Positions 10,646 to 64,000 of a DNA stretch of 64,000 bases are shown one piece after another. The notes under the pieces were generated by a model. That model did no database searches. It was not told the DNA's origin and saw only the letters and a list, made by a program, of their open reading frames with translations. Source of the DNA: Norana najaformis. Its lineage: Eukaryota > Annelida > Clitellata > Crassiclitellata > Hormogastridae. Location: positions 9,932,856 through 9,996,855 of the forward strand of contig OZ029929.1 of assembly GCA_964023275.1 (NCBI GenBank). Reading direction: 5' to 3'. Positions within the stretch are counted from its first letter, which is position 1. Each line of letters begins with the position of its first letter. A program made the position numbers and the translations under genes.

Positions 10646-10789
10646 AAAAGAAAAATGGAAAATAAAAGAGTAGATGAAAAGAAAGAATTAAACGAAGGAT
10701 GGATGAATGTTACAGTTACAGTCACAGGTAATAGGCTAAGTAAGCTGTATTGGCGTTTAATACCTATATCTATCCATCCACCTGTCAAG

Positions 10790-11815: not shown

Positions 11816-12250
11816 ATGAGCAACGGGAATAACAAAACGGCAGCTGACAAAACAAACGTTGACGAAATGGACAAACAAAGACACCTCGATCATTGGGACT
11901 TTCTTGAAGCGCCGATGGCAAGCTCAAGCAATAAGCTTTCGATGATGATTCTCTGCGTACGACGGAAGCAAAGCGTTGCAATCGCCCCTATACCGGCCGG
12001 CGATGACGATTTCACACGAGTCGAAGTCTTCTCTTCTCCGTCCAACCATGAAGATTTCACAAGAGCGTCGGTGTTTATCTCTGCATCCGTCTTTATCTCC
12101 CAGTTTCCGAAGGTCTGTTATAAACTACTCCAAGATTTTCAATATTGGGAAATCATTATCTTTATCATTTCACATAGGCTGTCTTTCCTACTGGAATTTA
12201 TTGCGCGTGCTCACCTCTTACTGTCATTACCCATATGCGACAGGAACTGA
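11816..12250 (+). pseudogene. GPCR-like first-exon relic, unit 1 copy
   Basis: The frame starts at the ATG homologous to the one at 52,151 in unit 3: MSNGNNKTAAD here, MSKGNKKMAAD there. Both continue through a shared LDHWDFLEAP / LSLWDFLEAP stretch. After residue ~45 this copy diverges from the GPCR-like sequence: the transmembrane-1 segment seen in unit 3 is absent and is replaced by sequence I cannot identify. An N-glycosylation-type NKT near the start fits an extracellular N-terminus, but as it stands this copy cannot encode a receptor. Confidence 0.4.
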
Positions 12251-12317
12251 GGTCTTTGATGTGCGGTAGGTCTACGATTCCTCGCTCAGTCGATGGACAT
12301 ATGGCGTGTTAACAAAT

Positions 12318-12348
12318 GCATTACTTACTTACTTACTTACTTACTTAG
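12318..12348. repeat. TTAC tetranucleotide microsatellite
   Basis: About six tandem TTAC/ACTT units. Confidence 0.9.
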
Positions 12349-15300
12349 ATGTTACCAAGGAATAATCTGCTACAGAAACCTCGAAGAAAACGAGAAAACC
12401 AACCTATATCACTGGAAGCCATCCAGAACCGTTCAACTCCCGATGTCCGAGATGAATAATTACTATGAACAGAATCATCGTTTAATATCTGCAACAGCGA
12501 GGTTAAGAAGGCTTTGATTAAAAAGTTCTTCCACGCATATTTAACGAATAAAGACGGATTATAAATCTACATTAAATATCTATAAGTCTTCTTCAATTGT
12601 TAGAAGAATGTATTTTTAGATAGTTTTAAGAGAGTATAAGGTTATTTGTTGAAATGATTAGCTCAAGCTAGACACTAACTCCTAGTTTTGCTATAAACTT
12701 CTTATTCATTTGACGTTTTAACTTACCGATTTCGTAATATTAGGCCCTATAGAGACATTGCCGATTAATAACAGAATGCAAAAGAAATTGCTATTCACGA
12801 GATAAATACGACTGATATGAACTTTTGCTTTTAAATTAGTGTGGAGGGCCTATACAATCTTTATTATTTGTGCTATTCCTATTTAAATTCTATGACGGCA
12901 CAAGTAGCTACGTCTAATAGGCAACGATTTAGAAGAGTGTTTAATTACACGCATTTTGCAAGGACTTGACTTTTGGCTGGAAATCGTCCTGGTCATAAAG
13001 TCACTCGGCTGTTTGGAGAATTGCGAATAGCTCGGTCAGCATCGATACTATGTATGTAAAGGAATGTTATATGGAGTCTCAGCATTTTAAATAGATCCAG
13101 GTCTGTGCTTTCTATGGGAATTAGTGTGCACATATAAAGAGTATAGCCTAAGCGTGGACCAGTCGTGAAATCAGAATTGGAGCATATCAGAGCATATCAA
13201 TAAAGCTGAGTAAATAGAAACGTTTATTCGCAAGTAGGTTTATATAACTATGCGTATGTGTATATATCGTTGCCACTACTGTATAACTGAAAGGCACTTT
13301 TTGTGTGTTAGGAAGGTAGAATAAGACATTGAAATATAAATAGAAGACAAGCTGGTGAAAAGAATAAATGCTGCGTTATATGATAATAGAGCATATTATT
13401 TGATGCTTCTGCAATGGTTTTACTACAGTAAGATTATCAGTGCTTTGGTGGCATAGTGGCCAACCCTAATGCGTTTATCTTTAACCTCAGCGTCTGAAGT
13501 TCCTACCTGGATGAGTCATGTAAAATTAGCATTTCGTTCTTGAGTCATGTGACAATACAACCCAAAGTCAAGGAAAGGTTTCCCAGCTGTCACCGTGTTG
13601 TCAGTCAAAATATTCTCCAAGCACAGGACACTGCCTGTAAGGACGACTGAAAGGGGTATGTAATGCATGAACGATTGTTTACAATCATAAGTTGAGATAC
13701 TACTCACTCCGTTGGCTTGGATGCGGTGTCCAGCCAGAAGATGACCCGTTTAAGAATGCAAGAAATTAAGGTTATCTCCTGGTGTTGCAATACGATGCTG
13801 GCAGATGCATTTAAGTGAAGCACCAAGGAGCCCAGTTATTTTTCATCCAGATCTGGTGATCAACTTGATATATCTAATTATCGCATATTTCTTGTTACAC
13901 CATCATTTCGTAAATATTGTTTAAGATTTGTTAGTGTTAATGAAAGGAGTTGAAGGAAATGAGCTGAAAAGGAAAGTTATGCTGATGGAAACTCCTTATC
14001 TAAAGATTTTGGTACAGTTAATCGCAATATAGGGCCTTTAGGCCTATATCTTGTTAGGTGTTTGAAGATATTACGTATCTTATCACAATGGTTTGTGGTT
14101 TGATAAATTGTTCTTGAACTCAAAAAAACTTAGTTACCTGTTTATGTTGTTCTCTAGCTTAAGAAGAAAAGCTTCTTCTCATAACTTAACGGTTTGCGTG
14201 AATGTACAAATACACTGAATGGTCCACCGACCACTAAATTCCGCAGTGTTAAAATTATTTCAAGTTTAATGATTTTAGTATCAAAATGCCAGTCAAAATA
14301 AATTTAATTTCATTTTATTTATTGCTCCCAAAACAACAGCATAAAATATAGTCCGCAGGCCTATAAATCTTATAGAGTAGGCCTACTTGCACTTGATTGG
14401 ATAGGTCTGCAAGTTTTCACTCTCTATATTCAAGTGCTTGCGATTAAATAAAATGTCAAATGGAAATAATCCAATAGCTGCTTTTTGGCTAGAAATAGAA
14501 CTTGGGGACGAGTCCAGACAAAGTGGCTTAATAAATATATCGAAACTGAGTGTCGTTATTGATACAAAAGCAACCATTATGTTGAAGGAAGGTTTTATGT
14601 AGCATCACAATTCTGACGACGCTGCTTACAATATGTGCGCGAAAGCCAAAACTCATGGCGATTTTACCACTGGTAAACGATGTGACGAAATGTAACATCT
14701 GACGCACAAATGCATGTCGATTCCGTTAAAAACATCCGATTGTGGACAAAAGAGCCTTTCAGGATGTCCAAGAAATCAACTCTGTAGCCTGTTTTAGCCT
14801 AATATACGTGCCGATCAAGAAATCAAGGTGGATCATGTGTACGCTCGTTAGCAATCGTACAATTTAGTCAAGCGAGAGGCAATCTAAATGTTACTAGTGC
14901 TTAGCCTCTTTTGTAGTCTTTTAGTTTAGGCCTAACAGATGTGCAACCGCACGGACCAGAGCGCATGTTCCATATGTTACCGCCCACGCCCAGGCGATAT
15001 AAAATTTGAGGGAACATTTTTATATACCAGTACGAGGTTCCTTTTTAAAACCAAACAAAATTCATATAGGCTTTCAGCTATGTAAGTAGACCAGGAGTGC
15101 AAGTAGTGTTACTACTTTATGTGCACGGCTGATGAACACATGATGCTGACTCTAGTTAATCCTTACAAAGAATAAAAGGAACTAAGACGAGTCTTAATCA
15201 CCAACAGCTGTCTTAAAAATACTGATATGTCCACATATCCTAGTTGCCAAGGTAACACCTCTGATGTTCAAACAGTTACTTTTCCAAAGGCGGGAAAATG

Positions 15301-16169: not shown

Positions 16170-16540
16170 CCAATCCTATCCTTACATAATTTCTGTACTC
16201 AAATCTTTACATTGGCTTCCTCTTCAGCAAAGGATTTATTTCCAAACTGGGGCTTTTACTTCATATACCACTGAACTCTGGCCAGCCACAATACTTAGAA
16301 TCAGTCCACATTCTCCAGACTTATCGTTATTCACCCAGATCATCTGATTGCTTTTCTCTGGTGATACCTAAGACTAGAACTGTTCGTGATGAACGAGCTT
16401 TTTCGTTTGCTTAACTTAGATTTATAGAACTCTTCCTGTGTTTGTTTGTTCTTCTGAGTCGTTTGTGTCAGTTCGTTCTCAACTTAAGACTTACCTTTTA
16501 AAAATGCTTATACACCATATGACTACCTGCCCTTGTGGCT
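16170..16540 (+). pseudogene. LINE ORF2 C-terminal remnant
   Basis: Plus-strand frames give ISVLKSLHWLPLQQRIYFQT, the highly conserved 'L..LHWLPV..RI.FK' motif of LINE ORF2. Later frames correspond to a 'VRSQLKTYLFK'-like end. The paralogue in unit 2 is at 47,235-47,530. Frame changes show it is decayed. Confidence 0.7.
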
Positions 16541-16924
16541 GATCGTATGGATATTGGCCTGATTGCGGCTTGGTGTTGGTGTGCCATCGGTTGATTGATT
16601 GTGCATTAGACACCGACGCCATAGAAGTAATTAATTAATAAAAGTTAAAATAGCATTATTCGCTCCAGGCTTTATTAATATCGGATTAAAGGAGATGACA
16701 TTGTTCATTGTAATGCGAAACATGATCGTAGTTTTCCAATGCTGTCCAGATTTGACTGAACTGCATTACCTAAAACGAGAACTTAACTTCTTGAGATCCT
16801 TTTCAACTATATTGTCTATTCTACCCAAACGACTGTATTTATGCTTAATCTAATCCTATCCTCAGATACAGGTTATAAAAACATATATACAACACATACA
16901 TATGAACACCTATGTACAACACAT

Positions 16925-17640
16925 ATATACAACACGTTCACAAATGCATAGGAATAGTTTAACATGTATAATATGGGACATAGGCATATACAATATACCC
17001 GCAGATCAATAAGAACCGTACAAGACTAAAACTATAAGCAATTAATTAGTCTTTATTTGAATCTGTCAAATGCACATGCATTACATTGTGTAGAACAATT
17101 ACATACATTTAAAATAGCTATAACATGAGCAAATTTACTAGATTGGCATTCACAACTAAATAGCCGATGAATGCATGGCCTGTTAACAAATGCATTAATT
17201 AATTCCTTACTTAATACACGACTTTAGGTAATCACCAAATGACTGTCTGAGCAACTGACTCAACTCCTAGTTTGTTCCTTGTACTCCTTTTTCTCTGTCT
17301 GTCTGTCTCTCTCTCTCTGTGTCTCTCTCTCACCATGGGAACGCACAACTAAACATTCATTCATAAAATTACTTTTAAGCAGTTTATATTTAAGAAGAGA
17401 TGGCATTCATCACGTTCACAAATGCGTAGGAATAGTTTAACATATATAATACCGTACACAGGCATATAGAATATGCCCGCACTTCAATAACAGCATCAAG
17501 GATATAACTTATATATACAAGAATATTTAAGAAAGTAAGTAGTCTTTGTTTGCATATGTGAAGCGCACATGCATGTATTACATTGTTTAGAACAATTAAA
17601 TACATTTAAAACAGGTTATAACATTAGCAAATAAAATAGA
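16925..17640. repeat. Local tandem duplication in 3' flank of gene A
   Basis: 16,925-17,160 and 17,410-17,640 are similar. Both contain CGTTCACAAATGC.TAGGAAT, ATAGGCATATA/CAGGCATATA, CCCGCA, GTAGTCTTT/TTAGTCTTT and TACATTGT.TAGAACAATTA. The unit 2 (48,200-48,410) and unit 3 (53,040-53,260) flanks carry one copy each, so this doubling appears specific to unit 1. Confidence 0.65.
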
Positions 17641-18078: not shown

Positions 18079-21000
18079 TCACTGCCTGAAACTATGTGAA
18101 GACAGCTTTCTAATAAATTCATCCCTATCAAACTGTTTCCACAATGGGTCATTATTCGGATACAAGTAGTCGTAGTCGTGATTCCATTGGATTATTGGTA
18201 TATCTATTGAGGCGTCATCATGACATAGGTCCATATGAATGCCATAGGCCTCAGAATAGTAGAAGGGAATCTTAAGGTTTGAAGAAGCGTTCACGTCATT
18301 CGCTTCGATGAACTGCAAAAATTCATCGTTTTCATCCAGGTCTATCATTTCTTGTCTGAATGAGGGCATAAAGTAGCAGGGATAAACTTCATGTCGAGAA
18401 AACTCCATGAAGCAAAACATGATCCTCTCGAACCAGAAGGCGATGTCCTCTCGCATAATTTTGTCTTCGTCCCGTGTTTCACTTCCATTTCTGGCAATGA
18501 GAGCCTCCTTGCAATAGAGAAGACAATTTTTCAATTGATAAGAAGTTTTCTCATGAAAGCGAAATGCCCTTTTGCAAACTATGTACGCTGCTTTTATTAA
18601 AGGCGAACTTTCTTTGATGATTCGACTTTCAACTGGTGCAAATGAAATTCTAGCAAATGTTTCGGAAGAGAGAAATTGAGCAACCCTTGGTTTGGAGTGA
18701 TCAAAGGGTGGCCCATCAAAGACCAGTGTACAACCGTCTGTTTTCACAGCAGGATTAATGCCAACTGGCAGTGAATCTCCTGGCCACCAACCCGACATCT
18801 GAACACAAGCAACGACGTCAATTGATATGTTGACAAAGAGAAAACCACCCTCTCCGTCGTCAATGGGATGAAGCATTCTTAATCGCACTGTCTTACATTT
18901 ACTAGCTGGCAGTTCATATTTCTCTTCGTCTTTATCTCTTACAATCCTTTCGAGCAGATCGTCGTCTTTCCAGAAATTAGGATCGTTTAAGACTTCTTCG
19001 AGAATATTCTGGAATCTAAAATTGACTTCCGTGGTCAGCAGACACTGATCTGAGTTGAAGAAACAGTCAAAGGCCTCGTCGTTCTGACTCTTGGAATCGT
19101 CTTGTGACATTCGTTTCAGTTGAAAGTAACCTTCAGCGCCCAACGGATGTGGAACCACTTCGCAAAGTCGACCAAGTTTAGCGAGCTTCATGTTATAGTC
19201 GAAGTCTGCTGAAAAGTAAGCTTTTGTTTCTTCGTCGGCGCTTCCGATTAAAATCGGCTGACACTCAAATCGCCACTCCTTTTCTTTAACACTATCAGCC
19301 AAACGGTCCATGAAGTGTTTTAGTGGTGTTTTAAGCTGGCTGACGCGTCTGTTAATGCGAATAAATTCATTTTGGAGCTGTATCTTAAAAATTTCATCTT
19401 CTGACGAATCTTGCCAGTGAGAATGGAAGAAAACTGTGATCGTAGCAGCCAATTTTTGCTTCGTTAATTCTGTCACGTGATTAGTGTTAAGCCTATCGGG
19501 CATCTTATGCGTCCTTGTTTCGATTGGCAATTCCACTTCGTCTCGTATTTTCTTCAGATCTCTAGGAGTATATCCGTATATGTCTTTTGTATTTTCATTA
19601 GCTCCACAGTTGAGCAACAAATTGTAATGAGCTTTCCTTTCTACGTAATGTAAAGGAGTTTTGCCATAAATGTCAGTTGCGTTTACGCTGCAGCCTAATT
19701 CTAGTAGCACCTTTACTACCATATCATGTCCGTTGTAGATGGTGGACGACGGCATAACATGGTAGTGAAGAGGAGTTCTTCCCTTGTCATCTATTACAGT
19801 AGCTAAATCCCTGAAATTCTCTTTGTTTAAGTCGAAACTTTCATGCTCCCGGTCTGTTTTGCAAACATGAAAGATGAGTCGATGCAAGGGATTTCCATCT
19901 CGTAGGTTTCGAATAGCGCCGCGATTCTCAAGTTCCTTGTAAGTTGCCGGATTCATTCGGTTCGAAGACTTAACTTCCAAATCAAGTGGCATGTTTCCTC
20001 TGAAGTCCAGGGCATTTACTTTCGTTTCGTCAATACCTAACAACAATTTAACTATATCTTCCTTATATTCTTTAGTTTCCCTTTCGCGTCCAAAAAGTTG
20101 TGATTCAAAGGCCGGCCTCGAATAGCTAATCTGAAGAAAATTGTTGATGCAGTACATTCGCTCTTGAAGCCCCTTGCAGAAGAAATGCAAATCAAACCAG
20201 TTCCTATTTGGCTCATAGATAGCTGCATGCAAGGCAGTAAATCCGTAATAGTCTTGCAGTTTCACGGACGCTTTATTGTCCAGCAGCAGCTGAACTACTT
20301 CGACATGATGCCCTGCAGCCGCTTTAATCAGAGCAGTTGCTCCATAGTGATCTCTTGCGTCCAGATCGAGTTTCATTCCCGATTTCTTCTCCCAGTCGAG
20401 CAAGATTTGAATGGCGTGACGACAGCCATTTTTGGAAGCAATGATCAAAGCCGTTTCGCCATGAGCATTTTTCATGTTGAAGTCTGCGCCTTTTTCTAAC
20501 AGCAATTTTGTTATATCTTCTATAGGTTGAATCTGTGAAAGTCGAATACTTGAATGTTTACTAAAATGATCGTGAAACCTTTTCCCACATTCTTTCAGCA
20601 CTTCGTGAAGTGGAGTGCTTAGTTCATTGGTCGGATAGTTTACATTGAATCTCACCGAATTCACAAGAACTTCTGCGATTTCTGTAATGTTTCTGCATTT
20701 GGCAGTTTCATAAAGGGCTTTATAAAATGAGGATGCCAAGTAATGAAAGCTGTCTGTAAGATGCTTCTTTGAATATACACATGGGTCTGTATCGAGTAAT
20801 ATCTTCACCATTTCCGGTTGGACGTAAAGCGCTGCTAGTTCGAGTGCAGTGTATCCACGGAAATCTCTCATTAGCTCCAGAGGTGTGTTTGTTTCTGCCC
20901 AAACTATTCTAGCCGATACGCAATCACCATCGCGTTTCCTAAGTTTGATGTCTCTGGTTTCAACCAAATACCTGACATTCTTTTGATATTCGTACCCGTC

Positions 21001-22407
21001 TTCTGTTAATGTGAACTTTTCATATGTCCTGCAGCTGTGCTTTAAAATAACTTTAACAACATCTATGTGACCCCTTTTGACGGCAACATGTAATGGTGTC
21101 TTTTCTTCACTGAACGCTATAAAATCCGAAAAGCCGCGAAGCAATAACTCATCTACCACATCTGCATGGCCATTCTTAGCTGCAAGGTAAAACGGTGTTT
21201 TCTCAGATTGTTTCATGACGTCCACGGAAGCACGGTTGTCCAGTAAAATCACCACACTGGAAGTGTGACCATTTTGGGCGGCTAAATGAAGTGGAGTCAA
21301 TTTGACGTTGTTACACTCATTAACAGCCGCACCGTAACGTATCAAGGCCTCCACGATTTCTCTATGGCCGTTTCTAGATGCCAGATGAAGCGGAGTTTGA
21401 CCATCTGCGTTTCTAGAGCCAACACTTGAGTTACTACTTAGTAAAAGATCGACAACATCTTTATGACCGACTCTAGCCGCATAGTGTAAAGGAGTGTTTT
21501 TCTTTGCGTCAACTGCATTCACGTCAGATTCAGTTGACTGATTCAGCAAACTCCTAACAACCTCGACATGACCACGTTTAGCTGCAAGGAGAAGCCGACT
21601 AGAAGCTTGTTCTCCTTCCTCACTAATGGCCTGAGCGTCCACCTCCTTCTCGTCCTCATCCTCTTCGTCCTTATTCTCTTCCTCCTCGTCTACTTCCTCC
21701 TCAGAGTGTGAATGAGTGTTTTTCTTTGCGTCCTCTGGATTTTCAATAGACTTGTCAACCTCAACACGAACACGTGGTTGGAAAGCGAGGTACCCTGCGA
21801 TTTTACACTGCTTCATTATCTTCTTGAACGCCATCTTCCTCTTCCTCCTTCCCCCTCGACCTCTGATTAGTCTGTCGGGAATGGGATACATTTCATTTGG
21901 TTCTTCATTGTCAGATGTGGAGTATAAATGGTCGCTAGTTTCGGGTTCATTTGATTCTTTACACATAGTTTCAACATCAGATTTAGTGTACTTTGCATCA
22001 GATTCGCGGTGCATTTCAACAGATGAGCAAACTTTGTCGACATCAGCTGCCTTTTGGGTTTCTTCACGTGGCTGCATACTGATGTCCTGTTGCATTTTCC
22101 TCTTCTTCTTCCTCACTTTCTCTCTGAACGTCATCTTCCTCTTCCTCCCAACCCCAGTGTCAGCTTTGGTGTTATCGTCGTTATTGTCATTCATTTCATT
22201 TGGTTCTTCGCTGTAAGATGTACAGGGTAAATGTTCGCTAGCTTCGGATGCATTTGATCCAACACACATAGTTTCAACATCAGATTGAGTGAACTGCGCA
22301 TCAGATACACTTTGTCTTTCAACAGATGAGGAGGCTTTTTCGACATCAGCTGCCTTTTGGGTTTCTCCAGATGCAGCCGCAGCATGTGTTTTTGATAATT
22401 CACTCAT
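18079..22407 (-). CDS. Gene A: ankyrin-repeat cGAS/Mab-21-like nucleotidyltransferase (cGLR-like)
   Basis: A single open frame encodes 1,442 aa from the first ATG (A at -3); a TTG-started extension of ten codons upstream is unlikely in an animal, and an in-frame stop lies just beyond it. Residues ~15-112 and ~115-212 are two copies of one module, each ending in a basic NLS-like cluster (GRKRKMTFREKVRKKKRK; GRRKRKMAFKK). An acidic run follows (~235-258), then ankyrin repeats at ~270-460 and again from ~520 to ~970. The C-terminal ~440 residues are a Mab-21/cGAS nucleotidyltransferase: G1055-S1056, metal ligands D1068 and D1070 (ADFDYNMKL), third acid D1197 (ISIDVVACV), then the Mab-21 helical lobe (KTSYQLKNCLLYCKEAL; CYFMPSF). 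No zinc-ribbon CC motif like vertebrate cGAS is seen. By family it could sense a nucleic acid or other ligand and make a cyclic dinucleotide; activity, ligand and product are inferred. The gene ends the spacer of duplication unit 1 and is the only intact member on this strand. Confidence 0.88.
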   Translation of the reverse strand: MSELSKTHAAAASGETQKAADVEKASSSVERQSVSDAQFTQSDVETMCVGSNASEASEHLPCTSYSEEPNEMNDNNDDNTKADTGVGRKRKMTFREKVRKKKRKMQQDISMQPREETQKAADVDKVCSSVEMHRESDAKYTKSDVETMCKESNEPETSDHLYSTSDNEEPNEMYPIPDRLIRGRGGRRKRKMAFKKIMKQCKIAGYLAFQPRVRVEVDKSIENPEDAKKNTHSHSEEEVDEEEENKDEEDEDEKEVDAQAISEEGEQASSRLLLAAKRGHVEVVRSLLNQSTESDVNAVDAKKNTPLHYAARVGHKDVVDLLLSSNSSVGSRNADGQTPLHLASRNGHREIVEALIRYGAAVNECNNVKLTPLHLAAQNGHTSSVVILLDNRASVDVMKQSEKTPFYLAAKNGHADVVDELLLRGFSDFIAFSEEKTPLHVAVKRGHIDVVKVILKHSCRTYEKFTLTEDGYEYQKNVRYLVETRDIKLRKRDGDCVSARIVWAETNTPLELMRDFRGYTALELAALYVQPEMVKILLDTDPCVYSKKHLTDSFHYLASSFYKALYETAKCRNITEIAEVLVNSVRFNVNYPTNELSTPLHEVLKECGKRFHDHFSKHSSIRLSQIQPIEDITKLLLEKGADFNMKNAHGETALIIASKNGCRHAIQILLDWEKKSGMKLDLDARDHYGATALIKAAAGHHVEVVQLLLDNKASVKLQDYYGFTALHAAIYEPNRNWFDLHFFCKGLQERMYCINNFLQISYSRPAFESQLFGRERETKEYKEDIVKLLLGIDETKVNALDFRGNMPLDLEVKSSNRMNPATYKELENRGAIRNLRDGNPLHRLIFHVCKTDREHESFDLNKENFRDLATVIDDKGRTPLHYHVMPSSTIYNGHDMVVKVLLELGCSVNATDIYGKTPLHYVERKAHYNLLLNCGANENTKDIYGYTPRDLKKIRDEVELPIETRTHKMPDRLNTNHVTELTKQKLAATITVFFHSHWQDSSEDEIFKIQLQNEFIRINRRVSQLKTPLKHFMDRLADSVKEKEWRFECQPILIGSADEETKAYFSADFDYNMKLAKLGRLCEVVPHPLGAEGYFQLKRMSQDDSKSQNDEAFDCFFNSDQCLLTTEVNFRFQNILEEVLNDPNFWKDDDLLERIVRDKDEEKYELPASKCKTVRLRMLHPIDDGEGGFLFVNISIDVVACVQMSGWWPGDSLPVGINPAVKTDGCTLVFDGPPFDHSKPRVAQFLSSETFARISFAPVESRIIKESSPLIKAAYIVCKRAFRFHEKTSYQLKNCLLYCKEALIARNGSETRDEDKIMREDIAFWFERIMFCFMEFSRHEVYPCYFMPSFRQEMIDLDENDEFLQFIEANDVNASSNLKIPFYYSEAYGIHMDLCHDDASIDIPIIQWNHDYDYLYPNNDPLWKQFDRDEFIRKLSSHSFRQ

Positions 22408-23465
22408 TATTGCGTGATTTAGTGTGTCATTCAGCAAATACAGCCGTTAGTCACCCCATCAAGTTTCTAGTTTTTAGTTTGCTGCAAAACAGAGTACACG
22501 ACTATGATTTAACAGAGAAATGCATAAAAATGTTAACTACATTTCGTAGCGATATAGTTGATGTAGCAACCTTTTCATTCGCTTAATTGACGGAAAATTT
22601 GCTCGACTGATTGTTACTTTAAATAAAATGGTGAACGTCAAGGTATTTAGAACAGACCACTCAGCAATTTTGTTTTGGATTTCAACTCTCACTGATTCAT
22701 CACAGATTCAGTTATGCAACAGCTATTCAGATTTTTCGACAACTCACTAGGAAGAGATAAAATCAAATTATTACAAACTTTATCAATATTAATCTTTAGA
22801 GTCGTGGTCGAAAGGCTGAGGCAACTTTCGGATAAGTGCAAACAAAGAGGAGCAATCCAGTAACCGTACAAAATATTTCCATACTTGTTACATGGCGTGA
22901 CCAACTGTGACTGTTACATTCACCAGGATTTGAAACCTGGATCCACTGGTGAAAAGCAAGCGCTATCATTCATACATGCTTTAAAGAATGACGAAGTATT
23001 GTCACGTCCTCGATTCCACTCTAGTCTAGCAGGAACGAGACGTGACGGGTTTGCTGAGTACGAAGAGTTATTTTTAATAAAGAATATATTAATTAATATA
23101 ACTAGTGGAAAGAAAGTTAGAGTTCGATCTAGAGAGTTTTTCTTAGCTAGCGTTCACTGTTGTGTTCTGTCCAAACATTACTTCAGTCTGTTCGAATCTT
23201 GAACTCCCCTCTATCGCCTGAGCGCATTACCTTTTATCCAAGTACACAGAACATGGTCCCCTTCCCCTGGGATCGTCAAACGTATACGGGGTGTCTATTC
23301 ACGACCACACAGCTGTATTATTTATCCCCTATACCTGTCCCCCGCTGTCGCTGTCTGAGTCTGTGGGGGGCTCACGTCTTCATCCCAAGATACTGTAGGC
23401 TCACCAGAGGGCCTAGCGTGTTATCCGATATCATAATGGCGACCTCAGGCGGGTTTGGTAGTCGT
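22408..23465. other. Upstream region of gene A, no gene recognised
   Basis: This is the 5' side of gene A. No coding similarity, clear TATA box or shared repeat was recognised. Short open frames (for example 22,885-23,202 plus) have no family resemblance. A 5' untranslated exon for gene A could lie here but is not visible. Confidence 0.4.
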
Positions 23466-24419: not shown

Positions 24420-24770
24420 CACGCCTTCCTCTATTTTGAGTTTGTAGTAGTGTTGTTTTTGCTTGATAAATATTGCTTTCTCTTTCCCTTTAATACATCA
24501 GCACACTTTGAGTCAACTGTGTTTTAGTGTTGCTGCTTAACTCCAGTTCTACAATGACGGTTAGAACTTTTTATTGAAAATGAGCATGGTCGAGGCCATA
24601 CGGTCTCTCAGGGAAAAGGTGCATATTTTTATATGCATAGACACGTACTTTGTGAAAATCAAATCTGGGTTTGCCTCTGAAATTTCTCATAGCACCCAAC
24701 AATTTAATTTTTGTGCCGGCACTGCCTATTTATTGATAGAGTTGATAACACAATGACGTAGCGTCAATTA
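24420..24770 (+). repeat. Composite repeat, left part, interrupted by a DNA transposon
   Basis: CACGCCTTCCTCTATTTTG through GACGTAGCGTCAATTA matches parts of 56,800-57,770 in the same order, including a short SINE piece at about 24,575-24,640 (GAGCATGGTCGAGGCCATAC). The matching sequence resumes on the far side of the transposon at 27,384. Confidence 0.65.
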
Positions 24771-27380
24771 CACTGGCCAACAGAAAAAATTTTTTTTCTT
24801 GTTGCCTTCGGTTTTAGACCTGTTCTTGGGGTAATTTTGGGCGCTGATTCAGAAAATGTCATTGGATTGAGTGCATCAGGTCTAGTTTCTCAGATATCGT
24901 CGATTTTGTAAAGAAAACCCAGTCCACTCTTTTAACGATGTCTTTGACAAAACTAAAATGTCATAATAAGCTTTATTTATGGCTAATTATAATTCTTGCT
25001 GATTCATATAATGCCTACATCCTTATAATGTAAAATCAGCATATCTTGCCGCGTGCTGAGATATTGCTGATTCAACGAAATAACTATTCCGTAGCCTACA
25101 GCTTACTCAGCACTAAATTCATGGCCTCATTTAGAATTTATTTGTGCTTATACAGCGTTTCATGGTTTCGAACTATGTAAATAGATTATGCTGAAGTCAG
25201 CATTTATAGCCTATATAAACCGCCTCCTGAAAGCTAGAGCAGCCGCAGTCGTCTTAGGGCATATTAAGAGTTGGTCGCAAGAACAATCTGTGAATGTGAG
25301 CATTAAATAACTACATGTTCTTACTATTTTTTAGGTTAGTCATTTAATTCCTCAGATGCGAACATCCTTAAGGTCATGGCTACTTCCAGACGGAGCTGCA
25401 TTAACCATCCAGACATATTCTGCTGCATTTGTGGGGAATACACACTAAAAGCAAACAGGAAACCGATTTCTGAGTTTGTAAAAAGAGCATATGTAGGTTA
25501 TTTTGGTGTCAAACTTGGAGATCAAGATAAGCAATGGGCTCCTCATACAGTATGCAAAACTTGTATTGAACAATTGCGCCACTGGACAACTGGAAAGAGA
25601 AGCTGCCTGAAATTTGGTGTACCGATGGTTTGGAGGGAACAGATAAACCACTTCGACGACTGTTACTTTTGTATGGTTAATATCATAGGCATCAATCGAA
25701 ATAATCGTCACAAGTTGTCTTACCCTGATATACCTTCAGCCAGGAGACCTGTTCCGCATTCGGATATTGTACCAGTTCCACCTTTTCGCGAACTACCTCA
25801 GCTCTCAGACGATGACACTTGCATGTCCAATATCGGACAAGATGACGAAAGTGAAGAAAGTGGGGGCAGTGACAGTGATTTCCAATCAACTTCACACAGA
25901 GTTGAGTGATCTGATCAGGGACTTAAATCTTTCCAAAGAGTCCTCTGAATTGCTTGCGTCCAGACTAAAGGAAAAGAATGCACTTCAGCCTGGAACGAAA
26001 ATTACAATTTATAGAAACAGAGAAAAGGATTTGCTGCCATTCTTTACCGAAGACAACAACCTAGTATTCTGTAATGACATCAGCAACTTATTGAAGAAAA
26101 TTGGTCTGTCGGATTACAGCCCAGATGAGTGGCGTCATTTTTTCGACAGTTCAAAACGTAGTCTGAAATGTGTGCTTTTAAATAACGGCAACAAATTTGG
26201 TTCTATTCCAATCGGTCACTCCACCAGGATGAAAGAAGAGTACAATGCCATCTCTTTAGTACTGGAAAAGATAAAATACAAAGAACATCAATGGGTAATT
26301 TGTGTAGACTTGAAGATGGTAAATTTCCTCCTTGGTCAACAAAGTGGCTACACAAAGTATCCCTGCTTTTTGTGTCAGCTTTGGGACAGTAGAGCCAAGC
26401 ATGAACATTGGACAAGAAAAGATTGGCCTTCGAGGAAAGACATGGTGGTTGGAGGTCAAAATGTAATCAAGGAATCTTTGGTGGCACGAGATAGGATCAT
26501 ACTGCCACCACTACATATAAAGCTAGGCCTGATGAAACAATTTGTCAAACAATTTGAATAAAGAAGGTTCATGCTTCGAATACATAGTACACAAGTTACC
26601 AGGAATTACAATGGAAAAATTGAAGGCTGGAATCTTCGATGGTCCACAGATCAGGCAACTTATGAATGACCCACTTTTCATACCATCAATGAATGAAATC
26701 GAATCTTGTGCCTGGTCTTCCTTTGTTCTTGTAACTAAAAATTTTCTTGGCAACAAGAAGGCAGATAATTATGCACAACTAGTAGAGGATATGCTTCTTC
26801 ATTTCAACAAGCTTGGCTGCAACATGAGCATTAAAGTCCATTTATCTCCACAGTCACTTAGATCGCTTTCCAGAGAATCTTGGTGACTTCAGCGAAGAGC
26901 AAGGTGAAAGATTTCACCAAGACATCAAAACAATGGAAAATCGATATCAAGGAAGATGGGATGCACACATGATGGCAGACTATTGCTGGAATATTATGCG
27001 CGATTGTTCCGGCAGATGCCACACTCGGAAATCGTACAAAAGGAGCTTCTTCGGTGTCGAATGACTTGAAATTTTTATAACAAACTTGTTCTGTTTGGTA
27101 TCATATAAGTACAGTTTCAGGTACTACCATTTTCTTTTAAGTATTTGTATTATTATGTTTATTTAGTGTATCACATAATAAATTGAGCACTACATAATTA
27201 TAGCTATAGCCTTATGTTTTATGGGCGAGCAGAGGCAAGGACTGGTATATGGCATAATGTTCTATATCTCGAAAACTAGACCTGCTGGGAGAAAACTGGT
27301 GCCTTTTCTCGAATCAGCAGGTCAAATATACCCAGAAACAGTTCTAACATTTGAGGCAACAAATTATGTGTTGGCCAGTG
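24771..27380 (+). mobile_element. DNA transposon with TIRs and TTA target duplication, superfamily not identified
   Basis: The ends are perfect inverted copies over 12 bp (CACTGGCCAACA) and remain similar for about 130 bp inward, both arms including a TTGTTGCC block, CTGATTC and AGGTCTAGTTT. TTA flanks both ends (24,768-24,770 and 27,381-27,383). The flanks join as continuous repeat sequence in the paralogous copy at about 57,760-57,780, which therefore preserves the empty site. The 2,610-bp element carries the cysteine-rich gene at 25,376-27,064. CACTG-type ends and a 3-bp duplication recall CACTA/EnSpm elements, and a TTA target recalls PIF/Harbinger, but I do not recognise the protein as either transposase. 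Confidence 0.82.
25376..27064 (+). pseudogene. Cysteine-rich transposase-like gene of the 24,771 element, frameshifted
   Basis: Four collinear frames make one protein of about 560 residues. The N-terminus has zinc-finger-like pairs (CCIC at 16-19, CKTC, then CYFC) around KRAYVGYFG and WAPHTVCKTC. The middle carries FDSSKRSLKCVLLNNGNKFG, GSIPIGHSTRMKEEYNAI, KWVICVDLKMVN-type sequence (here QWVICVDLKMVNFLLGQ), YPCFLCQLWDSRAKHEHW and LPPLHIKLGLMKQFV. The end carries MSIKVH, LDRFPENLGDFSEEQGERF and GRWDAHMMADYCW. Several Asp/Glu/His residues could form an RNase-H-like catalytic core, but this is not proven. Frameshifts lie near 25,890, near 26,555 (one extra T) and near 26,842 (one extra T), so this copy is dead. 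I recall similar intron-poor multi-copy proteins in invertebrates but cannot name the family with confidence. Confidence 0.75.
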
Positions 27381-31904: not shown

Positions 31905-31912
31905 AACAGACA

Positions 31913-48842: not shown

Positions 48843-49475
48843 TCATTGCCTCAAACTACGTGAAGATAGCTTTCTAATAAATTCTTCCCTATCAAATTCT
48901 TTCCACATTCTGTCATAATTCGCATGTGTGTAGGTAGGGTCGTGATTCCGTTGGATTATAGGTATATCGAATGAAGCGTCATCTGAACATTTTGAAAATA
49001 GGTCTAGATAAATGTCATATGCACCATGGTAATGTAAGGAAATGCCTGAAGAAACTTTCTCCTTATCCGCTTCAATGAACTGCAGTTCATTGAAGGCAGA
49101 AGTATCTTGATTCATTTTCTGTCTGAATGAAGGCATAAGGCAACAAGGATAAACGTCATGTCGAGAAAACTCTAAGAACCAAAACATGACCCTCTCGACC
49201 CAGAAGGCGAGTTCCGTCGGCATAAGTTTGTCATCGTTTCGTGTTTCATTTCCATTTCTGGTATTGAGAGCCTCCATGCAAAAGAGAAGACAATTTTTCA
49301 ATTGATATGAAGTTTTCTCATGATCGTGAAGTATTATTTTGCAAACTATATAGGCTGCTTTTATTAAAGGGGAACTTTCTCTGATGATTCGACTTTCCAC
49401 TGGTGCAAATGAAATTCTAGCAAATGTTTCGGAAAAAATAAAGCGGGAACTCTTGGGTTGGAGGGATCAAAGCGA
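48843..49475 (-). pseudogene. Relic C: C-terminal end of an ankyrin/Mab-21-like gene
   Basis: An open frame of 185 codons (48,843-49,400) matches the last ~185 residues of gene A almost residue for residue, including VESRIIRESSPLIKAAYIVC, HEKTSYQLKNCLLF and FDREEFIRKLSSRSLRQ. Upstream a frame change follows (SSRFIFSETFARISF frame), and homology ends at about 49,475, where the LINE-bearing start of unit 3 is joined. All ankyrin repeats and the whole catalytic half are missing, so it cannot be an enzyme. Without an upstream exon it is probably untranslated, although a downstream ATG would allow a short Mab-21 helical-lobe peptide. Confidence 0.85.
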
Positions 49476-53700: not shown

Positions 53701-56700
53701 CATTGCCTTTATGCTACGTGAAGACAGCTTTCTAATAAATTCTTCCCTATCAAATTGTTTCCACATTGGGTCATAATTGGCGTAAATGTAGGGGTAGTCG
53801 TAATTTCATTGGATTGTAGGCATATCCAATGAGGCGTCATCTGGACATAGGGCCAGATAAATGTCATAGACCGCAGAGTAGCAGAAGGGAATCTTAATGT
53901 CTGAAGAAACGTTCACGTTATCCCCTTCGATGAACGGCAAACATCCATAATTTTCATTTATATGTTGCATTTTCAGTCTGAATGAGGGCATAAGGTAACA
54001 GGGGTAAACGTCATGTCGAGAAAACTCCATGAAGCAAAACATGATCCTCTAGACCCAGAAGGTGAGTTCCGTGCGCAAAATGTTGTCTTCATTTCGTGCT
54101 TCACTTCCATTTCTGGCATTGAGAGCCTCCATGCAAAACAGAAGACAATTTTTCAATTGATATGAAGTTTTCTCATGATCGTGAAGTATCATTTTGCAAA
54201 CTATATAGGCTGCTTTTATTAAAGGGGAACTTTCTTTGATGATTCGACTTTCTACCGTTGCAAATGAAATTCTAGCAAATTTTTCGGAAAAGAGAAATTG
54301 ATGAGTTTCAACCCTTGGGTTGGACCGACAAAAGCGTGGCCGATCAAAGACCAGTGTACAACCGTCTGTTTTCACAGCACGACTAAATTTAATTGGCAGT
54401 GAATCTCTTGGCCAACAATATTCCATGTTAACACAAGCAACGACATCAATTGATATGTTGACAAAGAGAGAGCCACCCTCTCCGTCGTCAATGGGATGAA
54501 GCATTCTTAGTTCCACCGTTTTACACAGACCAATGGAATGAAACATAGACGAGTTGTCCGCTTATATTTCATTTCGTCTATATCTGTTACAATCCATTCG
54601 AACAGGTCGTCGTATTTCCAGAAATTAGGGTCGTTTAAGACTTCTTCGAGAATAATTCTAAATCTAGAATTGACTTCATGAGTCAGCAGGCACTGATCTG
54701 AGTTGAAGAAGTAGTCAAAGGCCTCGTCATTCCGACTCTTGGTATCGTCTTTTGACTTCCATCTCAGTTGAAAGTAGCCTTCAAGACCCAACGGATGTGG
54801 AAACTCTTCGCAAATTTGACTAAATTTAGTCAGTTTAAAGTTATGGTCGAAGTATGCTGAAACGATAATTTTGGTTTTCTCGTCGGCGCTTCCGATTAAA
54901 ATCGGCTGACACTCAAATCGCCAATCCTTTTCCTTTATACCAGCAGCCAAACGGTCCATGAAGTGTTGTAGTGGTCTTTTAAGCTGGCTTACGCGTCTGT
55001 TAAGTCGAATAAATTTATTTTGCATCCATATCTTCCAAATTGTTTCTTCTGACGACTCTCGACCGGAAGATGATTGGGAGCAAATTGTAATCGTGGAAGC
55101 AACTTTCTGCTTCGTTAATTCAGTCACATGAATATTGCGAAGCTTGTTGGGCATGTTATAAGTTCTCATTCTGATTGGAAATTTCACAGCGTTGACTTCG
55201 TCGATTCTTATCTGATCTCGTAGTTGCTTAAGATCTCTAGGAGTATATCCGTATCTATCGTTATTTGCATTAGCTCCAGAGCTGAGGATGAACATGTAAT
55301 GATCATTATCTTCTGCGTAATGTAAAGGGGTTTTGTCGTAAATGTCAGTTGCATTTACGCTACAGCCGAATTTTAGTAGCAGCTTTACTACTTTGTAATA
55401 TTCACCAGTGATGGTGGACCATTTCATAACATGGTGGTGAAGAGGAGTTCTTCCCTTATCATCTGTTACAGTAGCTAAATTCCTGAAATTCTCTTTTCTT
55501 AATTCGAATCTTTCACGCTCCCGTTCTGTTTTACAAACAGGAGAGATGAGTCGATGCAAGGGACTTCGATCTTGTAGGTTTTGAAAACCGCCACGATTCT
55601 GAAGTTCTTTGAAAGTTGCCGAATTCACTCGCATGGAAGACTTCACTGCCAAATCAAGTGGCGTGTTTCCTCTGAAGTCCAGAGCATTCACAATTATTTC
55701 GTCAATCCTAACAACAATTTAACTATTTCTTCTTTATAAATAGTAGTTTCCTTTTCGTGTCCAATACCTTGTGATTTATAGTCACCCTTCCAATCGCTAA
55801 TCTGAAGATAATCGTTGATGCCATATTCTTGCTTGCGAAGCCCATTGCAGAAGAAACTCAAATCAAAGCAGTTCCTACTTGGTTCAAAGACAGCTGCATG
55901 CAAAGCAGTAGGTCCATAACAGTCTTGCAGATTCACGGACGCTTTATTGTTCAGCAGCAGCTGCACTACTTCGACATGATGTCTTTCTGCCGCTTTAATA
56001 GAAGCAGTTGCTCCATAATGATCTCTTGCGTCCATATCAAGTTTCATTCCCGATTTCTGCTCCCAGTCGAGCAAGATTTGAACAGCGTGACGACAGCCAT
56101 TTTGGGAAGCAATAATCAAAGCCGTTTCGCCCTCATAATTTTTCATGTTGAAGTCTGCTCCTTTTTCTAACAGCAACTTTATTATATCGTCTATAGGTTG
56201 AATCTGCAAAAGTCCCTTTCTTGACTTTTTAATAAGATAATTGTGAAACCATTTTCCGCATATTTTGAGAACTTCGTGAAGTGGAGTCTTTAATAGCCAG
56301 CTCGGATAGTTTACATTGAATCTGTCTGACTTTACAAGAACTTCTGCGACTTTTAAAATATTTTTGCATTTGATAGCGTTACAACGAGAACCATTGAATG
56401 AGGATGCAAAGTAATGAAAGCTGGCTCTAAGATGCTCCTCTGAATATACACCTTGGTTTCTATCGAGCAATATCTCAACCATTCCCGGTTGGACGGAAAG
56501 CGCTGCCATATCGAGTGCCGTCCATCCTTGTGATTCTCTCATTAACTCTAGAGGCGTGTTTGTTTCCGCCCAAACTTTTTGAGCAGATACGCATTGACCT
56601 TTCCGCTTTCTAAATTCGTCTGGTTTGATGTTCCTGGTTTCAACCAAGTACCTGACATTTTCTTGAAGTTTGTACCCATCTTCTGTGAGTTTTACAGAAG

Positions 56701-56787
56701 TCGTGCGGCTCTGATTTGAAATAACTTTTACAACCTCTGTATGACCCTTTTCGACGGCAACGTGTAATGGTGTCTTTTTATATGTTC
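53701..56787 (-). pseudogene. Relic B: broken ankyrin/Mab-21-like gene
   Basis: Collinear with gene A from about its residue 435 to the C-terminus, split over several frames (55,694-56,647 and beyond to 56,787; 54,507-55,691; 54,049-54,546; 53,806-54,042). Lesions seen by comparison with A: a 1-nt loss near 55,692; about 20 extra nt near 54,530; a stop codon (TAG, 54,049-54,051) in place of a Glu codon; a 1-nt loss near 53,808 creating TGA. The nucleotidyltransferase keeps GSADEKTK and the third acid (ISIDVVACV), but the first metal-binding acid is Tyr (54,852-54,854; SAYFDHN instead of SADFDYN), so it would be catalytically impaired even if translated. At 56,787, in the middle of an ankyrin repeat, gene sequence ends and composite-repeat sequence begins. 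The N-terminal module and first ankyrin repeats are missing. Confidence 0.92.
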
Positions 56788-56789
56788 TA

Positions 56790-57999
56790 TGCCTCGCCTT
56801 CCTCTATTTTGGGATTATAGTGCTGAGGTTTTTGCTTGATGAATGTTGCTTTCTCTTTCTCTTTGATACGTTAGCCCACTCTGGGTCACTGTATTTATCA
56901 GCTGTGTTTTATTGTTACTGAATTGTTCCAGTTCCACAGCAATGGTTAGAACTTCCATCTCTTTATTGATCTGTCACAGTATGGTTTTCAAACTCTGTCC
57001 GCTACTTATCAGTTCCACTTCTGTGTTGGATTTGCTGTAAAATTAATCTAGCATATTCAAATCAATAGAATTTTAAAGTTACTAGAAAAGGAGCCATAGT
57101 TATGCTACATTTTCTATTCACCAAGTAGATGACCAAAGTAAGGTAAAACTATATAATAGGTGAACCGTGCAGGGGCCGGTAAAACCTCTGAATATTCTCC
57201 AATTTAGGCCGACATCAAATTGCACCTGTTTTATTATTTTATATTATACATTAGACTTATTTAAACTTATGCTTAGACTTGTCAGACATATTTTGTAATA
57301 TATATTAGACTACTATATATTAGACTTACTTGGCACATTTCAATTTCAAAAACTGAAACTTTAATTTCTATCGTAGAATTGTGGACACCCTAATGCACTG
57401 TTGGCCTTGTTAGCAACATTGGTTAAAGCGTGCGTCAAGGCGTCTCTCCGCGTGAAGAAGCCGGTTCTCGTCCTGACCGTGGCTTATCTAGCGCGGTCCG
57501 TACACAAGGACCTTACATGGCATGACGCCCATTGAAACGAGCAGCGGTGGTGAAGGATCTCACCCGATTTTTTCATTGAAAACGAGCAGAGTCGAGGTCA
57601 TACTGTCGCTATAGCAAAACGTATATATTTATATATGCAAAAGAACATACTATGTGAAAATCACACTTGAGCTTGCCTCTGAAATTCCCACATGGCACCC
57701 AGCCATTTTGTTATCGTGCCGGTACTGTCTACTATTGCTATAGCTGATAGCATAATGACTTAGCGTCAACTGTATGTGAAGGATTTTACTCCAGGTCCTC
57801 GTGCAATGAGCTTCCTAGAAGTTGACGTATTACGCGGAAAGCACTCAACAAACATACTAATTTCTTATCATAGCAGGCAACGCCTAATAAATAAATGTAG
57901 GTCTAACCTCTTGATTTTTGGCGGAGCTACAGACGTCAGATACAGAGTGTGCACATAATAAGCCTTTTCTCTTGAGATGGTCACTGTTTGAGAAGGTCA
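56790..57999 (+). repeat. Composite repeat, left part, uninterrupted copy
   Basis: GCCTCGCCTTCCTCTATTTT onward matches 24,420-24,770, and 57,776 onward matches 27,384-27,640. At about 57,768-57,775 the two halves are joined without the 2.6-kb transposon found at 24,771. The segment 56,950-57,420 between shared parts has no recognised gene. Confidence 0.7.
57420..57640 (+). repeat. tRNA-derived SINE, near full length
   Basis: TTAGCAACATTGGTTAAAGC (A-box-like) and GCCGGTTCTCGTCCTGACCG (B-box-like), then the body GTGGCTTATCTAGCGCGGTC, GGTGAAGGATCTCACCCGAT and GAGCAGAGTCGAGGTCATAC. Confidence 0.7.
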
Positions 58000-61040: not shown

Positions 61041-61161
61041 CATAAGAATATCAGAGAGTATTATAACGCTTAATGTGTTTGTGTTGTTTTAGAGAAGACA
61101 GAATAACGAGCATTAGAGCTTGGTGCAGTTACTTGGGTTAAAGCCCAGAATCGGAGCTCAT

Positions 61162-64000
61162 ATGATGGATTCAGATACAAATATTCGAATTTACCGTCCG
61201 CATGATGGTCTAAATACCCTTCTGCACCATACATATAGAGTTACAGATACAGATACAGATACTCTAAGTACTCCTCTGCACGTTGCGGCTCGAGATGGTT
61301 GCCTAGACGAAGTGACGACGTTGCTACAGACCAGCACGGGCGACGTTAATGCACAGGACAGAGATGGCAGGACTCCACTACATCTCGCAGTTGAAAATCG
61401 TCACACACGTATTGCTGAGATGTTGCTGAAACATGGGGCGAATATTCTCGCCAAAGACCTATATGAACATACACCGTTTTATTTGGCAGCAAGAAAGGGG
61501 TTTGCAGAAATTCTTCAGGTGATGTTAAATTTCGCTGAAAATGCTGATAATAATCAAGACCTTGGCAGTTACCAGTCTACAGCGCCTTCTCCGACAATTC
61601 GGACTTTTAAACGACATGAACTTAATCTGAATGTCGAGTCTGAAATCCCAGTTATGCAGCAAGATTCAAGAGCGTCAGAACGGGCATTCCGGTGTGCAAC
61701 ACCAGGAACTCAGGACTGCCAGATGAGACCTGTAGATGTACAGTATGATGTAGTTTCATACGAAGATGATGACATTCTGTCGATCAGGGTGACTGTTTGC
61801 AAGAAAGATCAACTGTCCGACATGCTAAACCGTGAGTGTCATAATGCTCTTCTAGGTGCCATACACGATAGTAACATCGAAGCAGTTAAGACACTGGTAG
61901 AAAGCGATCTAATCAATGCGATGAACGGTGATGGGTTCACTGCACTACATGATGCAGTGCGGACTATCGATATCATGGAAATACTCTTAAACTCTGGTAA
62001 GTTCAACGTGAATGCCCTCTCTTATAATTCTGAAACACCTCTGTTTTGTGCTATCAACCACAAATATAATCAAGATTTTTCAGGAAAGGTCCTTACCGAA
62101 ATTGAGAAAAAGGATCAAAATGTACTGTTGTTACTTTTGAAACACAAAGCAGACATCAACTTCAGGAACTCACAAGGTGAGACTGCTTTGATTAGGGCAG
62201 CAGAATTCGGCTACGATCACATCGTTCGGCTTTTTATAGACTGGTCGAAAGAAACTGGCGTAAATGTAGATCTCAATGCCAGAGATTTTCTTGGTGAGAC
62301 TGCATTAATAAAAGCAGCCAAACAGCGAATCCCACAAATAGTGAAAATACTTTTGGATGCTGGCGCTTCAGTCACTTTGGCAGATTATTGTGGACACACA
62401 GCGTTGCATGCCGTCTGCTATGAAGAACTTAATCACCGCAGCTGGATCAATTTACGTCACATATGGAAAGAACTCTGCGAAGAAGATCTGGAATTTAACT
62501 TTAAACTAGCTATACTGATAAAGATGGCGTACCAATCTTTTTATAAAAAATTGAATCCCTGTTTAAGCTCTCTACTGAAAGAACTTGACGTTGAAAACCT
62601 TCCAGATCGCGATCTAGCAGATATGATAGGGAAACTTCCTATCACGGATGTTCCACAAATAATTGCATACTGTTCTACAGAAACCGAAGCGGAATTAAAT
62701 AAACACAGAACTGTAGAACTCCTTCTTAAAAACGAAGATATTGACGTAAACGCTGCTGACTTCAGAGGTAATACGCCGCTTGACCTGGCCTTAAAGTCAG
62801 GAGTGAAAACAAAACCTTGTACGATAGAAGCACTCAAACACCACGGAGCCACTTGTAACACATTTTCACACACACAACAGAATGCAAACTTCGAAATACC
62901 AGAAGGTGTGATAGACAAAAAAGGAGGATCAACTTTCCATCGTCTAGCCTTTGGTAACAGATATAGGCGATATGAGAAATACGAAAACAGAGAATTAAAA
63001 CAAATCCAAGCTAAGTTAGGCCTACATACGTCAGATAAGTCAATAATACATGGAGAAGATTTACATTTGTACAAAGTGCTTGAGAGCATTCACTGTTTCT
63101 CCCAACTTCCAAGAAATGCATGTCATCAAATCCTCCAGATCAAAGACAACCGCGGTAGAACCGCCTTCCATGTAGCTGTAATGCCAATGTCTAACTCCTT
63201 GAAACAGGTACCTGACAAAGACATTTGGTTCATGGTATGTATTGCGGCTCTACTACTAAGCATGGGCTGTGACGTCAACGCCACTGATAACTACGGAAGA
63301 ACGCCGCTACACTACTCTTCGCATCATTTATTCACAAAACTTTTAATTGAAAATGGCGGAAACAAAGACATTAGAGATATAGATGGAAAAAGTGCAAATG
63401 AAATGGTACAAATGAGAACGGAGGAAGGTATGACTTTTAAAAATGCTCAGCGTGGAAACACTGATGCAGTACGAAAGATATGGTCATTCAAACCCACTGC
63501 TATTTCGATATCGGATCTTGCCGAATTGCTACATATTGATTCATCTTTGTTAGAACCAGTGAATGTTCAATATGAATTTTTTCCAAATTCTTCAGAGGAA
63601 AAATCAGAATACGCGAAAAATATCGCAAGCACCATATGGAATGAAGAAAAATACGCAGATCGCAATCCAATTTCAGATCTTCTTCAAACAGAAATCAAAA
63701 ACTTTATCGACAGATTGGTTGATGGTATTAAAAATTATGATCCAAGGTTTAAATGTCGACCAATCTTTGTTGGAAGCGCCTTCGAAGGAACGAAAATTGA
63801 TTTCCCAGATGAATTCGATTTTGATCTAGTTCTCACAAATTTTAGCGAGCTGTGTGAAGTTTATCCGTCGCCCGTTCTCCCAAGTGGTTTTGTTCATCTT
63901 AGAAAAAAGCAAACGGAAGAACATACCACAAAACAGAAATTCGATGATTTTTTCGACTTGGAAGGCATTCTCTTAACAAACAAACTCAATGTACAATTCA
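61162..64000 (+). CDS. Gene D: diverged ankyrin-repeat cGAS/Mab-21-like nucleotidyltransferase, 3' end beyond window
   Basis: Open from ATG 61,162 to the window edge (946 codons so far), with no stop or frame change; a second ATG at 61,165 has the better context (A at -3, G at +4). An in-frame stop lies at 61,114. A TTGTGTTGTTTTAG acceptor-like site at about 61,092 suggests a spliced 5' exon. Ankyrin repeats are at ~36-125 (TPLHVAARDG, TPLHLAVENR, TPFYLAARKG), then a ~100-residue linker, then a second block from ~230 to ~755 (GETALIRAAEFG at 339, GETALIKAAKQ, GCDVNATDNYGRTPLHY). The nucleotidyltransferase begins near 830: G871-S872 (GSAFEGTK) and E884-F885-D886 (DEFDFDLVL), a canonical cGAS-type metal-binding pair, followed by LSELCEV-like sequence (FSELCEVYP). 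The third acid should lie past the window end. It lacks the NLS-like N-terminus of gene A. Same family and order as A, opposite strand, clearly older divergence. Function as a ligand-activated nucleotide-second-messenger enzyme is inferred. Confidence 0.88.
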   Translation, partial: MMDSDTNIRIYRPHDGLNTLLHHTYRVTDTDTDTLSTPLHVAARDGCLDEVTTLLQTSTGDVNAQDRDGRTPLHLAVENRHTRIAEMLLKHGANILAKDLYEHTPFYLAARKGFAEILQVMLNFAENADNNQDLGSYQSTAPSPTIRTFKRHELNLNVESEIPVMQQDSRASERAFRCATPGTQDCQMRPVDVQYDVVSYEDDDILSIRVTVCKKDQLSDMLNRECHNALLGAIHDSNIEAVKTLVESDLINAMNGDGFTALHDAVRTIDIMEILLNSGKFNVNALSYNSETPLFCAINHKYNQDFSGKVLTEIEKKDQNVLLLLLKHKADINFRNSQGETALIRAAEFGYDHIVRLFIDWSKETGVNVDLNARDFLGETALIKAAKQRIPQIVKILLDAGASVTLADYCGHTALHAVCYEELNHRSWINLRHIWKELCEEDLEFNFKLAILIKMAYQSFYKKLNPCLSSLLKELDVENLPDRDLADMIGKLPITDVPQIIAYCSTETEAELNKHRTVELLLKNEDIDVNAADFRGNTPLDLALKSGVKTKPCTIEALKHHGATCNTFSHTQQNANFEIPEGVIDKKGGSTFHRLAFGNRYRRYEKYENRELKQIQAKLGLHTSDKSIIHGEDLHLYKVLESIHCFSQLPRNACHQILQIKDNRGRTAFHVAVMPMSNSLKQVPDKDIWFMVCIAALLLSMGCDVNATDNYGRTPLHYSSHHLFTKLLIENGGNKDIRDIDGKSANEMVQMRTEEGMTFKNAQRGNTDAVRKIWSFKPTAISISDLAELLHIDSSLLEPVNVQYEFFPNSSEEKSEYAKNIASTIWNEEKYADRNPISDLLQTEIKNFIDRLVDGIKNYDPRFKCRPIFVGSAFEGTKIDFPDEFDFDLVLTNFSELCEVYPSPVLPSGFVHLRKKQTEEHTTKQKFDDFFDLEGILLTNKLNVQF

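Follow-up and report, generated by a model that had tools for sequence, protein, structure and literature searches.

Organization of the ankyrin-cGLR gene

The window analyzed here, a 64,000-nucleotide stretch of contig OZ029929.1 of the annelid Norana najaformis, contains on its minus strand a gene, P0001, whose predicted 1442-residue product joins ankyrin repeats to a Mab-21/cGAS-type nucleotidyltransferase domain, the combination expected of an ankyrin-fused cGAS-like receptor (cGLR). The single open frame, from ATG to TGA at 18079–22407, is exactly that proposed in a first-pass annotation of the same DNA, and the Gly-Ser motif and three putative catalytic acids lie at the residues it had named (Table 1). 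Its description of one exon-like frame agrees with this, the single exon being read from the open frame alone. Because the frame is long, has relatives at 25 places of a genomic array (see below), and shows a ratio of nonsynonymous to synonymous substitution rates (dN/dS) of 0.67 (interval 0.55–0.83; 1425 codons) against its closest paralogue, locus L017, a chance frame or frame artefact is ruled out.

Profile searches, as suggested in the first-pass annotation, recovered both the ankyrin repeats (Ank_2, 6e-72 on the whole protein) and the Mab-21 family PF03281. The proposed division into two ankyrin blocks is a fair one: AlphaFold placed paired helices over much of residues 270–730, with predicted local distance difference test (pLDDT) values mostly of 70–90, and weaker pieces towards residue 955. 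In a 1193-residue model the ankyrin solenoid is clear, and 413 residues reach a pLDDT of at least 70.

The duplication within the low-complexity N-terminus is also visible at the DNA level, where a self-match pairs 21825–22066 with 22125–22369. This region of P0001 carries basic clusters at residues 88–104 and 187–191 and an acidic run at about 240–253. Among the 17 long open copies of the family, acidic runs occur in 12 and basic clusters in only six, which makes a basic N-terminus weak as a candidate for a general nucleic-acid anchor. The start methionine of P0001 sits inside an N-terminal motif that, judged by eye, is present in frame in 11 of these 17 copies.

Table 1. Positions, strands and descriptions of P0001, its parts, and other family members in the window.
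Feature	Position	Strand	Description
Ankyrin-cGLR gene P0001	18079..22407	-	Single open frame, ATG to TGA, 1442 amino acids; stop TGA at 18079–18081
Low-complexity N-terminus, residues 1–265	21613..22407	-	Internally duplicated unit of about 100 amino acids
Ankyrin block A, residues 266–465	21013..21612	-	One partial repeat, then five 33-residue repeats in strict register (300–464)
Ankyrin block B, residues 466–955	19543..21012	-	Irregular, with insertions; Pfam ankyrin stretches and helical-repeat model with low-confidence parts
Spine-like helix, Mab-21/cGAS nucleotidyltransferase core and helical C-lobe, residues 1003–1442	18082..19401	-	PF03281; PDB profile matches to cGAS and cGLR1
G1055-S1056 activation-loop motif	19240..19245	-	Invariant in alignment A1
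D1068-F-D1070, first two catalytic acids (putative)	19198..19206	-	Aligns with EFD of solved cGAS
D1197, third catalytic acid (putative)	18817..18819	-	Aligns with SVD of solved cGAS; weak segment
Broken family copy	53809..56803	-	Split over four or more frame pieces; Y at the position of D1068
C-terminal remnant of a further copy	48846..49466	-	Matches residues 1239–1442, 63% identity
Start of divergent ankyrin-cGLR	61117..64000	+	28% identity; open at window end; Mab-21 part continues in L034

Similarity of the C-terminal domain to cGAS

On the whole protein PF03281 scores 23.1 bits, just under its curated cut-off of 24.1, and on the last 503 residues alone it scores 24.7 bits, just above it. 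In the available text of Culbertson and Levin 2023 the cGLR superfamily is delimited by this Mab21 Pfam domain together with clade (PMC10732462), and by the domain part of that definition the C-terminal piece of P0001 belongs to it. A broader view came from alignment A1, made of 19 related C-terminal sequences of this genome: PF03281 matched all 19 at E ≤ 0.01 (best, 7e-12), and a profile made from the alignment and run against the PDB found cGAS (7lz3, E = 3.7e-4; 7kxs, 5.8e-4) and cGAS-like receptor 1 (8gjy, 1.3e-3). Aligned with cGAS, the DFD of the family sits opposite EFD and D1197 opposite the aspartate of SVDI, with a WP following in both; the first motifs lie in a segment scoring 15.9 bits. 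The Mab-21/cGAS-type domain with GS and three acids claimed in the first-pass annotation was thus borne out, in register with solved cGAS (weakly so in the D1197 segment) and with GS, DFD and the third aspartate kept in all 17 long open copies.

With cGAS and animal cGLR1 (7lz3, 8gjy and 8gjw) P0001 shares the GS, the [DE]FD and third D in register, the WP after the third acid and, weakly, the helical C-lobe. It differs from them in its long ankyrin front end, in its low sequence similarity and in having no zinc-thumb-like H-CC-C. We take the zinc-thumb pattern to be H-x(4-6)-CC-x(5-8)-C, and none of the 17 long open copies contains it; as far as such a sequence pattern can tell, its absence from all of them speaks against a vertebrate-cGAS-like DNA switch.

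A tandem array of related copies

In a search of the 608-Mb genome (17 contigs), the 32 candidates scored out of 2756 placed relatives of P0001 at 25 or more positions within 9.67–10.28 Mb of contig C17, all on the minus strand. The same 32 included at least six more distant matches outside the array, three on C17 (one with stops) and three on C11. From the array, 23 places were read out in sequence as loci L009–L030 and L032, in addition to two inside the window. Two of the six distant matches, L031 and L033, were examined, and both keep the GS and acid motifs with E replacing the first D, as in cGAS.

The copies have non-coding flanks in common: positions 16500–17500 of the window match 15 of the 25 compared loci, and 22500–23000 match 20 of the 25. 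Since both non-coding flanks recur in other copies, these are genomic duplicates rather than retrocopies, and a retrocopy origin of the array is disfavored. In a tree of this genome's copies P0001 pairs with L017 (support 1.00).

Long frames open from the ankyrin repeats to the C-terminus were found in 17 of the 25 copies, spanning 1206–1759 amino acids from stop to stop. The remaining eight copies are broken or partial, and three of them have lost an acid: L009 and L022 (both DFN) and the window copy at 53.8–56.8 kb (YFD). L009 and L022 form a sister pair, so their DFN probably reflects one loss event.

Selection on the frame and turnover of ankyrin repeats

Divided by part, dN/dS between P0001 and L017 was 0.62 (0.45–0.88) over residues 266–955 and 0.55 (0.37–0.84) over residues 1011–1442, and the whole-frame interval excluded 1 in all seven pairs tested, which were hand-picked from the tree. 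Over up to 136 pairs, median dN/dS was 0.52 in block A, 0.85 for residues 471–690, 0.78 for 600–955 and 0.74 for 1–265; in the enzyme part the medians were 0.59 (1011–1210) and 0.74 (1211–1442). No regional median exceeded 1 besides that of the linker at 955–1010 (1.19, with 97 of 135 pairs above 1), which is short and gap-rich, and the segment 961–1020 reached only 0.92. Segments of 60 residues with dN/dS above 1 were limited to 511–570 (1.15), 31–90 (1.02) and 841–900 (1.01). Change in this family is quick but constrained.

Copies differ in the length of their ankyrin region, with 6 to 17 TPLHxA-like motifs each by a regular expression that serves as a rough measure. In parts of the array in L010, L015, L018, L024, and L032 (block A), neighboring 33-residue (99-base) units are mostly 71–95% alike at the DNA level, and single neighboring pairs of this type occur in L012, L017, L019, L020, and L025. 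Neighboring repeats of P0001 are 41–49% alike. Judged from these identities, ankyrin units have multiplied recently within some copies and not within P0001.

Other content of the window and genomic setting

The divergent ankyrin-cGLR that begins near the end of the window and continues in L034 has intact GS, EFD and SID motifs, and the PF03281 match to it is full-length (3.3e-12). Among PDB entries it comes closest to cGAS-like receptor 1 (8gjy, 2.2e-5; 8gjw, 4.7e-4), the latter entry being listed as a cGLR of the oyster C. virginica in the available text of its source (PMC12424679).

Reverse transcriptase frames occur at 2015–2740 on the plus strand (RVT_1, 3.2e-9) and at 30960–32057 on the minus strand (RVT_1, 1.2e-26), and retroelements therefore lie between the array genes. 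The stretch 24767–26753 is 98% identical to L025:7001–9001, about 110–210 kb away, and looks like a recently moved element; it contains a frame with a weak zf-AD match, below the cut-off, and an overlapping frame that has no Pfam match. Adjoining family copies are two parallel duplicated pieces, 9438–12991 and 49477–53013, which are 78–88% alike. By eye, a frame at 52097–52504 has the look of a receptor fragment, and it has no Pfam match.

Genome-wide, PF03281 gave at least 150 matches above its cut-off, considering the best 150 of 247 candidates; four of these 150 have internal stops, and they cluster above all on contigs C1, C2, and C8. L035 and L036, partly examined examples from such clusters, contain the GS motif. 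The 25 array copies are all absent from the best 150 of the 247 candidates, so the total of Mab-21-type genes must be higher. According to the available text of Li et al. 2023, radiations of more than 200 cGLR genes exist in Crassostrea virginica and Dreissena polymorpha (PMC9980059); the clustered PF03281 matches of N. najaformis, 150 or more, resemble these, whereas the 25 array copies stand apart in not being among the best 150. Close proteins from outside this genome numbered one in one search and three in another, from ENA or JGI sources.

Assignment of P0001 and alternative explanations

We consider it probable that P0001 is an animal cGAS-like receptor, cytosolic or nuclear, that is gated by its ankyrin repeats, makes a cyclic dinucleotide for a STING-type target, and is one member of a tandem array. 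The domain order, the motif residues, the array itself, the acids kept in open copies, and the constraint on the frame are read directly from the DNA; we infer catalysis, its product, what the ankyrin array does, and STING as the target. In this scheme the N-terminal ankyrin array would pick the trigger or partner; by binding a protein or ligand it would release the enzyme, cluster it or set its position. Once activated, the C-terminal nucleotidyltransferase would join nucleotides into a cyclic dinucleotide or related product, whose target would be a receptor of the STING type. The array would stem from successive duplications of a genomic segment, with tighter constraint on the enzyme part than on much of the remaining sequence and with an ankyrin region of changing length.

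A number of results weigh against this assignment or limit it. An AlphaFold model of the enzyme part, built from a nine-sequence alignment, had a mean pLDDT of 40.4 and no residue at 70 or above, too poor to judge the geometry of the acids, and in the 1193-residue model nearly all of residues 958–1442 fell below 50. With this poor enzyme-part model, the best four Foldseek matches were all cGAS, at E = 0.013–0.12 (none below 0.001) and template modeling (TM) scores of 0.12–0.13. In the profile alignment the segment holding D1197 scores 7.0 bits, a weak register by itself. Between the DxD pair and the third acid lie 126 residues in P0001 and 123–146 in all 25 rows of the family tree set, outside the X50–90 of a published rule. 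For human cGAS we take the same spacing to be 91, and the rule is therefore better understood as a search filter than as a boundary; read literally, it excludes P0001. As given in the available text of Li et al. 2023, a cGLR with a putative active site has a G[S/G] motif, an [E/D]h[E/D] pair, a third [E/D] separated from the pair by X50–90, and predicted structural homology to cGAS; P0001 has the first of these as G1055-S1056 and has both the acid pair and the third acid, the latter at its longer spacing (PMC9980059).

A spacing beyond that rule would also suit a catalytically idle Mab-21-fold protein, whose fold and acids are retained for folding or for binding nucleotides and which works as an ankyrin scaffold, making no second messenger. 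For many proteins with the Mab-21 fold no product is known, and Mab21L1 and MB21D2 are described as having unclear immune roles in the portions of Culbertson and Levin 2023 at hand (PMC10732462); many cGLRs appear inactive in vitro in those of Li et al. (PMC9980059). Moreover, all three acids are kept in five of the eight broken copies (L011, L013, L021, L023, and L029, the last in two frames), so that keeping the acids tells only part of the story. If those copies were lost recently, their acids would be explained, and the contrast with the open ones is suggestive only. We nonetheless regard an idle fold as unlikely, given that GS and the three acids persist in every long open copy while three of the eight broken ones have lost an acid, and that the distant L031 and L033 keep the motifs with the glutamate that cGAS itself has as first acid.

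The condition of the array raises a different alternative, a local duplication burst in a repeat-rich region, under relaxed constraint and with few copies expressed, in which P0001 is simply not yet broken. Eight of the 25 copies are broken or partial, transposon-derived frames lie nearby, and the conserved N-terminal motif that includes the start is, by eye, out of frame or missing in six of the 17 long open copies (L018, L019, L024, L026, L028, and L032). Across most regions dN/dS is 0.5–0.85, and the medians of 0.52–0.85 are high relative to a housekeeping enzyme, which fits fast immune evolution and also relaxed constraint. Such decay seems to us an improbable account of P0001, however, since the dN/dS interval of P0001 and L017 excludes 1, as it does in the seven hand-picked pairs, and since P0001 has retained the conserved start.

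Novelty and implications

The first-pass annotation had put P0001 forward as an undescribed system, and this did not hold up, because ankyrin-cGLR fusions are already described among animal cGLRs in the available text of Li et al. 2023 (PMC9980059). P0001 resembles those proteins in combining ankyrin repeats with a cGLR enzyme domain and departs from them, as far as that text describes them, in its spacing of 126 residues (theirs being X50–90), its 25-copy chromosomal array, and its variable number of ankyrin repeats. What is new here is the tandem array of about 25 related copies, the fusion type itself being known; searches of the open-licence literature turned up no description of ankyrin-cGLRs in such an array.

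If P0001 is a cGLR of the kind proposed, its array might amount to a repertoire of ankyrin-gated second-messenger sensors, in which a conserved enzyme is combined with varying repeat number and surface, and different copies answer different microbial or host-derived proteins, by analogy with clusters of NLR or plant resistance genes. We hold this idea tentatively and think it rather doubtful. A search for positive selection on the ankyrin array found no regional sign of it, none of the 136 pairs exceeding 1 in block A. In favor of the receptor proposed above, block A positions that we take to be those varying in designed ankyrin binders change more than framework positions, with a proportion of nonsynonymous differences (pN) of 0.25 and of synonymous differences (pS) of 0.33, as compared with a pN of 0.11 and pS of 0.24; constraint from the fold alone may be the cause of this pattern.

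Were the array a sensor repertoire, it would represent a branch of cGLRs that responds to protein ligands rather than nucleic acids and that the published spacing rule would miss. Because the subfamily scores at or just under the PF03281 cut-off and has a spacing of 126 residues, surveys relying on PF03281 alone or on the X50–90 rule may undercount genes of this type. Most of the cGLRs studied are stand-alone nucleic-acid sensors, and a cluster that repeats one enzyme behind ankyrin arrays of varied length would offer a natural test of how an added domain contributes to sensing.

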